This document shows positions 12,488-13,475 of a stretch of DNA of 64,000 nt, piece after piece (position 1 is the stretch's first letter; each line of letters starts with the position of its first letter). The position numbers and the translations under genes were made by a program. Below the pieces are notes generated by a model. It did not search any database. It was not told the DNA's origin and worked only from the letters and a program-made list of their open reading frames with translations. Where the stretch lies: assembly GCF_048771995.1 (NCBI RefSeq), contig NC_133030.1:63251501-63315500 (forward strand), given 5' to 3'. Origin of the DNA: Taeniopygia guttata (lineage: Eukaryota > Chordata > Aves > Passeriformes > Estrildidae).

Positions 12488-12788
12488 GAGGAGCCCGCGT
12501 GTCTCTGTATTGCCCAGGCTACGCTGGCGTGGCTATTCACAGGCGCGATCCCGCTACTGACCGCCACGGGAGCTTTGACCTGCTCCGTCTCCGACCTGGG
12601 CCGGTTCACCCCTCCTTAGTCAACCTGGTGTCCCGCAGCTCCCCGCGGGTCACCATATTGATGGCGGCCTTAGCTTGGACGCCCGCTCGGCACAGCGCAC
12701 GGCAGCCCAGAACTCCTGGGCTCAAGCGATCCGTCGGGCTCAGCCTCCCCGGCAGCTGGGACTACAGGCGTGCGCCACCGCGCCCGGC
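12488..12788 (-). ncRNA. RN7SL1: 7SL RNA, the RNA of the signal recognition particle
   Basis: Read on the minus strand from 12788, the sequence begins GCCGGGCGCGGTGGCGC and continues through CTGTAGTCCCAGCT, GGATCGCTTGAGCCCAGGAG, ATCAATATGGTGACC, ACTAAGGAGGGGTGAACCGG, GGTCAAAGCTCCCGTG, GGGATCGCGCCTGTGAATAG and AGCCTGGGCAA. This is vertebrate 7SL from end to end, about 300 nt, including the Alu-domain ends, the SRP54-binding helix 8 and the long central helix 5. Because it includes the central S domain that Alu elements lack, it is the true SRP RNA and not an Alu. Internal Pol III elements (GGTGGCGCACGC and GATCGCTTGAG) are present and a TTTT terminator follows. It assembles with SRP proteins in nucleus and cytosol to target nascent secretory proteins to the ER. 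Conserved placement beside RPS29 supports it as the functional locus. Confidence 0.95.
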
Positions 12789-12976
12789 GCTCGCAGCCCG
12801 CTCCGCAGCGCTTACGGCTTGTGCTGCAGCGTGACGTCACGGGGCGGCCGCTGCTGCTCCGCCCCGCTGCGTGACGTCACGGGAAAAAAAGCGCGGGCCG
12901 CCCCGCTGCGTGACGTCACGGGCGGTGCACGCCGGGAGGCGCCGTGAGGGTTATAAGGGCAGGCGGCCGCCGCCAT
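12789..12976. promoter_or_regulatory. Bidirectional 7SL / RPS29 promoter with three CRE/ATF sites
   Basis: A 188-bp GC-rich interval between the 7SL start (minus) and the inferred RPS29 start (plus). Perfect TGACGTCA palindromes lie at 12832-12839, 12872-12879 and 12911-12918. The last two sit in an exact 25-bp direct repeat (12859-12883 and 12898-12922), so the site was tandemly duplicated. The first lies at -44 to -51 of 7SL, where the human 7SL promoter is known to carry an ATF/CRE site. A TATA-like TTATAAG at 12951-12957 faces RPS29. Joint regulation by CREB/ATF factors is inference. Confidence 0.85.
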
Positions 12977-13475
12977 CTTCCTCTCGGCACCACACAGCCA
13001 TGGGCCACCAGCAGCTCTACTGGAGCCACCCCAGGAAGTTCGGCCAGGGCTCCCGCTCGTGGTCAGTGCTGCCCTTTGCTCTCCGCGGGTCGTGGCTGCC
13101 GCGTTGCTCCCCTTCCCTTCACATTTACCACCCCCCCCGCCCTCACGCGCCTCTCTCTGTTCCCCTCACAGCCGCGTGTGCTCCAACCGCCACGGCCTCA
13201 TCCGCAAGTACGGGCTCAACATGTGCCGCCAGTGCTTCCGCCAGTACGCCAAGGACATCGGGTTCATCAAGGTGAGCCCCGCGGCTGCGGGAGGCGGCTC
13301 GGCCGTGCCGCTCCCCGCTGACTCCCCCCGTGTCTCTCGCTCTCTTGCAGCTGGACTGAGCGCCGGGAGGATGAGGCGACAGCCAGGAGCGGCCGGGGCG
13401 TTCCAGAGCATCCCTGACACATCTCCAGCGTCTCGGCTCAGCCTTACCTAATAAATGCTCTCCTAACCCAGCTGA
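12977..13475 (+). other. RPS29: RPS29 transcription unit with 5'TOP start and poly(A) signal
   Basis: The pyrimidine tract CTTCCTCTC at 12977-12985 lies 26 bp after the TATA-like TTATAAG and is a typical 5'TOP start, which places ribosomal protein mRNAs under mTOR-LARP1 translational control. The 5' leader is about 23 nt. AATAAA is at 13450-13455, about 90 nt after the stop codon, so the mRNA is very short. The 3' end near 13475 is inferred. Confidence 0.8.
13000..13359 (+). CDS. RPS29: RPS29, 40S ribosomal protein S29 (uS14)
   Basis: Three coding exons: 13000-13061, 13172-13271 and 13351-13359, with GT/AG introns of 110 and 79 bp. The first donor is GTCAGT and splits Cys21; the last exon codes only Leu-Asp-stop. 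The joined protein is 56 residues, [20 protein letters not shown] followed by [20 protein letters not shown], then [16 protein letters not shown], the same length as human and essentially identical. Four Cys (21, 24, 39, 42) form the C-x2-C...C-x2-C zinc site. It is a component of the 40S head near the decoding region in the cytosol. The intact introns, TOP start and conserved neighbourhood show the true gene and not a processed copy. Confidence 0.98.

Follow-up and report, generated by a model that had tools for sequence, protein, structure and literature searches.

The closest described counterpart of the locus analysed here is the mammalian 7SL gene, human RN7SL1 in particular, which is transcribed by RNA polymerase III (Pol III) from a type 2 or hybrid promoter that includes an ATF/CRE site (passages of PMC7279448 and PMC8362101). 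According to the parts of PMC7279448 on which we draw, mammalian 7SL genes carry a TATA-like CTCTAGTA at −31/−24 and a CRE, TGACGTCA, at −51/−44, and most of them have GC boxes within −90/−52. In human 7SL-1 this TGACGTCA is placed at −50/−43, and five substitutions in the human 7SL CRE lowered in vitro transcription 2.5-fold; the same passages report one functional CRE for human 7SL. Two starts, one of them with a cap-like signature, are described for RN7SL1 in an excerpt of PMC8744680. Another relevant system is the pair formed by the genes for RNase P RNA and PARP2, for which a divergent Pol III/Pol II promoter is established (Ame et al. 2001, as cited in an excerpt of PMC13206784). Here we describe a zebra finch locus in which a 7SL gene and the ribosomal-protein gene RPS29 diverge from one short gap containing three CREs, and we weigh how far this gap may act as a single promoter for both.

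A complete 7SL gene beside an intact RPS29

Across the window, by which we mean the whole 64-kb stretch of DNA analysed, Rfam identified a single SRP RNA gene, at 12788-12489 on the minus strand. The match runs over model positions 1-299 of 299 of RF00017 with 241.3 bits against a gathering threshold of 70, which upholds the proposal of a preliminary description that this SRP RNA gene is complete. The gene (12489..12788, +1 at 12788) folds with a minimum free energy of −151.2 kcal/mol (z −2.6), and its candidate internal promoter box stretches look usable by eye. Directly adjoining the match on its 3′ side is CTTTTG (12488-12483), in which CTTTT (12484..12488, minus strand) forms a Pol III terminator run. 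The loop of helix 8 (12587-12592) reads GGAGAC against gGAAAc in the aligned Rfam consensus, a change that we take to leave it a GNRA/GNAR type loop.

A permissive Rfam scan of the window (E up to 0.5) returned nothing beyond the 7SL gene itself and, within it, a mir-1268 hit below threshold (33 bits against a gathering score of 83), which overlaps the 7SL 5′ end and was rejected; ARAGORN found no tRNA. A search for exact copies of a 22-base core of 7SL gave no stretch in either viral_contigs or genome_contigs, collections of viral, bacterial and archaeal DNA that are uninformative about conservation among vertebrates. SRP RNA genes are few in birds, with a median of 3 copies across 48 genomes and 4 copies in chicken, 2 of these 4 with RNA-seq confirmation (passages of PMC4378963), and with so few copies it is improbable that an intact 7SL gene is a stray pseudogene.

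On the plus strand, the RPS29 coding region (13000..13359) starts with an ATG at 13000 and comprises exons 13000-13061, 13172-13271 and 13351-13359, joined at GT/AG junctions and followed by AATAAA at 13450. All 56 of its 56 residues are identical to the PDB sequence u21417, '40S ribosomal protein S29', and the locus also gives a Ribosomal_S14 Pfam match, which agrees with the earlier account of RPS29 on this strand, here with three coding exons. A pattern scan for RPS29 in viral_contigs yielded 10 stretches, none confirmed by tblastn, and that collection says nothing about vertebrate conservation.

On the promoter side of RPS29, a motif scan located TTATAA at 12951..12956 (plus strand), corresponding to the TATA-like box that had been described as facing this gene, and the oligopyrimidine CTTCCTCTC at 12977..12985 (plus strand) is a candidate 5′TOP start of the mRNA. 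Neither CCAAT nor the ETS-type CGGAAG occurs on either strand of 12729-13020, which leaves the CRE, the GC box and the TATA box as the plain RPS29-side candidates among the motifs tried.

A neighbourhood common to zebra finch and human

Both further genes recognised in the window are located past the 7SL 3′ end. At 1..463 on the minus strand, cut by the window edge, is the 5′ part of MGAT2, supported by a phmmer match (3.2e-24) to 5vcm_A, an alpha-1,6-mannosyl-glycoprotein 2-beta-N-acetylglucosaminyltransferase. LRR1, the syntenic neighbour downstream of 7SL, has a domain-supported part at 5700..10183 on the same strand, with LRR domains found by Pfam in 5700-6455 and PH_LRR1 at 91.3 bits in the frame 9428-11491; PH_LRR1 also appears in 5700-6455, below the cut-off (18.8 against 27). 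By eye, a putative last LRR1 exon ends near 2150, and the two frames over it, 1923-2360 and 1654-2283, match no Pfam family; they belong to a set of eight frames of which six had no match, the other two being those with the LRR domains at 5700-6455 and with Ribosomal_S14 at RPS29. No gene was noticed by eye at 463-2150, between MGAT2 and this putative exon, the interval in which mammals presumably have RPL36AL. Towards the other end of the window, from 13500 to 64000, no further conserved gene was recognised, and three stretches compared with Pfam gave no match.

Human RN7SL1 has been mapped to chr14:49,586,869 (passage of PMC7158060), and POLE2, RPS29, MGAT2 and ARF6 are named as its cis genes, that is, genes on the same chromosome within 50 kb (passage of PMC10999094). 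With LRR1 and MGAT2 next to the zebra finch 7SL, and RPS29 and MGAT2 near human RN7SL1, the locus looks syntenic, and a neighbourhood common to the two species is well supported. A table row in an excerpt of PMC11209625 groups RPPH1, RN7SL2, RPS29 and RN7SL1 at 14q21.3, a row that has to be read loosely because RPPH1 lies elsewhere on chromosome 14 (passage of PMC7158060); the excerpted part of PMC10525918 mentions RPS29 and RN7SL pseudogenes for chromosome 7 alone. Of the earlier statement that human RN7SL1 lies just upstream of RPS29 in the same arrangement, the common neighbourhood of RN7SL1, RPS29 and MGAT2 is thus documented (the same passage of PMC10999094). We assume that the human pair is likewise head to head, about 200 bp apart.

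Several repeats were also observed around these genes. Between LRR1 exon 1 and the 7SL 3′ end lie two related minisatellites with 17-bp units, at 10546-11322 and 11714-12131, and 3′ of RPS29 there is a 607-bp inverted duplication (14247-14849 and 18839-19441) whose arms are 95.6% identical and about 4 kb apart. Tails that we take to be of CR1-like repeats, seen by eye in window frames, would be consistent with an avian or other reptilian lineage.

Three CREs in the gap

The 7SL start at 12788 and the putative RPS29 start at 12977 stand head to head, about 190 bp apart as previously described, and enclose a gap of 188 bp. Both starts fall within a CpG-rich stretch that extends, by CpG ratio, over roughly 12200-13400. 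Inside the gap are three perfect copies of TGACGTCA: CRE 1 at 12832..12839 (−44/−51 of 7SL; −145/−138 of the putative RPS29 start), CRE 2 at 12872-12879 (−84/−91; −105/−98) and CRE 3 at 12911-12918 (−123/−130; −66/−59). All three share the extension GTGACGTCAC. The three perfect sites of the preliminary description were recovered, beginning at 12832, 12872 and 12911, and they are the only perfect CREs in the 64-kb window, for which 0.20 would be expected; at least three occurred in none of 100 shuffles. A model of local composition, trained on 12400-13400 with the CREs included, predicts 0.0012 (order 1) or 0.0025 (order 2) copies of TGACGTCA per 188 bp, and for each order at least two were present in none of 50,000 simulated stretches. 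Chance formation of the CREs through high CpG content was rejected on this last count.

On the 7SL side of the gap, the CRE and GC boxes follow the mammalian layout. CRE 1 occupies −51/−44 of 7SL, so that its match to the known position, which had been claimed by reference to the human gene, is now tied to the published mammalian coordinates (the passages of PMC7279448 quoted above). A GC box (GGGCGG on the plus strand, 12842..12847) at −54/−59 and a second one in the opposite orientation (12859-12864) at −71/−76 were located by motif scan. The stretch at −31/−24, AGCCGTAA (12812..12819, minus strand), is a poor match to the TATA-like CTCTAGTA, with a GC content of 4/8 against 3/8 in the mammalian consensus. 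The anatomy of the locus can be read directly from these positions, and its CRE stands where the published functional one does.

CRE 2 and CRE 3 are each contained in a copy of one 25-bp repeat on the plus strand, copy a at 12859..12883 and copy b at 12898..12922. These had been described as an exact tandem duplication; the copies are indeed exact, and the word tandem has to be given up, because they are spaced rather than contiguous, with starts 39 bp apart. The 39-bp unit agrees at 30 of 39 positions, and in the 14 bp beyond the repeat only 5 agree. Since CRE 2 and CRE 3 share one duplication, the three CREs do not represent three independent events. Helical phasing of the sites was considered and rejected, as the distances between successive centres, 40 and 39 bp, correspond to 3.8 and 3.7 helical turns at 10.5 bp per turn.

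A candidate shared promoter and its alternatives

We consider it probable that this is a native 7SL gene head to head with RPS29, and that the CRE cluster serves as a common CREB/ATF platform acting in both directions. Several features argue for this reading, namely the full-length 7SL gene with its terminator, the CRE and GC boxes at mammalian positions, an intact RPS29 with a TATA box and a pyrimidine start, synteny, the clustering of CREs beyond chance, and the precedent of a divergent Pol III/Pol II promoter at RNase P RNA/PARP2. The poor −31/−24 box, the CRE spacing off whole turns and the single human CRE count against it. On the sequence, joint control of 7SL and RPS29 is plausible; we infer that CREB/ATF proteins bind in the gap, that this 7SL copy is transcribed, that the CREs act on RPS29 and that the two genes are coupled.

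Under such an arrangement, the CRE at −51/−44 would bind CREB/ATF and stimulate Pol III on a 7SL gene with an internal promoter, as in human 7SL. At RPS29, the CRE near −60 would be a proximal Pol II activator site, upstream of the TATA box and the TOP-type start. CRE 2 and CRE 3 would derive from one locally duplicated segment, with a period of 39 bp, and the cluster as a whole may keep the gap open and raise output both ways.

A different and somewhat unlikely account holds that the promoters are independent, with CRE 1 working for 7SL only, RPS29 being driven by its TATA box together with further elements of ribosomal-protein promoters, and the closeness of the two genes being passive. The published mammalian 7SL layout, with one CRE at about −50 (passage of PMC7279448), is in keeping with it, and RPS29 does have a TATA box and pyrimidine start of its own; since human 7SL has one functional CRE, the extra CREs are not needed for 7SL. 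However, RPS29 has one of the three CREs near its −60, and perfect CREs are confined, across 64 kb, to the gap that the two genes share.

A far broader form of the shared-promoter reading appears doubtful. It would make the locus a vertebrate-wide module, with a single CREB/ATF platform governing the supply of both SRP RNA and a ribosomal protein; through it cAMP or stress could tune translation and protein export in step, and the number of CREs, amplified in the lineage, would act as a dosage control.

It is less probable still that the additional CREs arose neutrally, as a side effect of slippage or local duplication in DNA that is GC-rich and prone to repeats, and that they do little. Large minisatellites do lie near the gap (10546-11322 and 11714-12131), and both distal sites, CRE 2 and CRE 3, sit in the one exact 25-bp repeat. 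Against this, it is the identical 25 bp that hold the CRE, with agreement at 5 of the other 14 positions, a pattern that fits selection and would equally fit a recent partial duplication. Finally, that this 7SL is a silent pseudogene or paralogue, with the active gene elsewhere, is highly improbable: a median of 3 SRP RNA annotations in birds (passage of PMC4378963) would leave room for another copy, but the one here is full length, has a good structure score, a terminator and a rightly placed CRE, and lies in a syntenic position.

Returning to the common CREB/ATF platform, should 7SL and RPS29 both respond to these CREs, the gap would constitute a natural two-polymerase promoter, in which the balance between Pol II and Pol III could be studied from one activator platform, and would offer a handle on how the supplies of ribosomes and SRP are matched. 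Among the titles and abstracts that searches of an open-access library brought up, none dealt with the RN7SL1/RPS29 gap as a promoter of both genes, with coupling to RPS29 or with a triple CRE; such a paper may exist outside that library. RPS29 is absent from PMC8744680 and from the main text of PMC7158060, PMC3499247 mentions neither 7SL, RN7SL nor PARP2, and passages of PMC10498592 contain nothing about CRE or ATF.

Comparison with known systems

RNase P RNA and PARP2 (RPPH1/PARP2) resemble the zebra finch pair in that an RNA gene transcribed by Pol III and a protein-coding gene transcribed by Pol II diverge from one short gap. They differ in the kind of evidence, as two-way activity has been demonstrated for the H1 promoter, whereas the zebra finch gap is known from its sequence. 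The promoters are presumably also of different types, H1 being a type 3 (PSE/DSE) Pol III promoter and 7SL having an internal promoter plus a CRE.

With vertebrate ribosomal-protein promoters that have 5′TOP starts, the RPS29 side has in common a CpG-rich setting, a short 5′UTR, a pyrimidine start and a TATA-like box. To our knowledge, neither a triple perfect CRE nor a Pol III partner is general among such promoters.

The nearest likeness is to mammalian 7SL, and the 7SL half of the gap is a known promoter type. The zebra finch locus has in common with the mammalian genes the CRE TGACGTCA at −51/−44, the upstream GC boxes and the T-run terminator, and with human RN7SL1 a neighbourhood that includes RPS29 and MGAT2. 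Unlike mammalian 7SL as published, it has three CREs across the gap and a poorer TATA-like box. Overall, the arrangement seems ancient and for the most part unremarkable.
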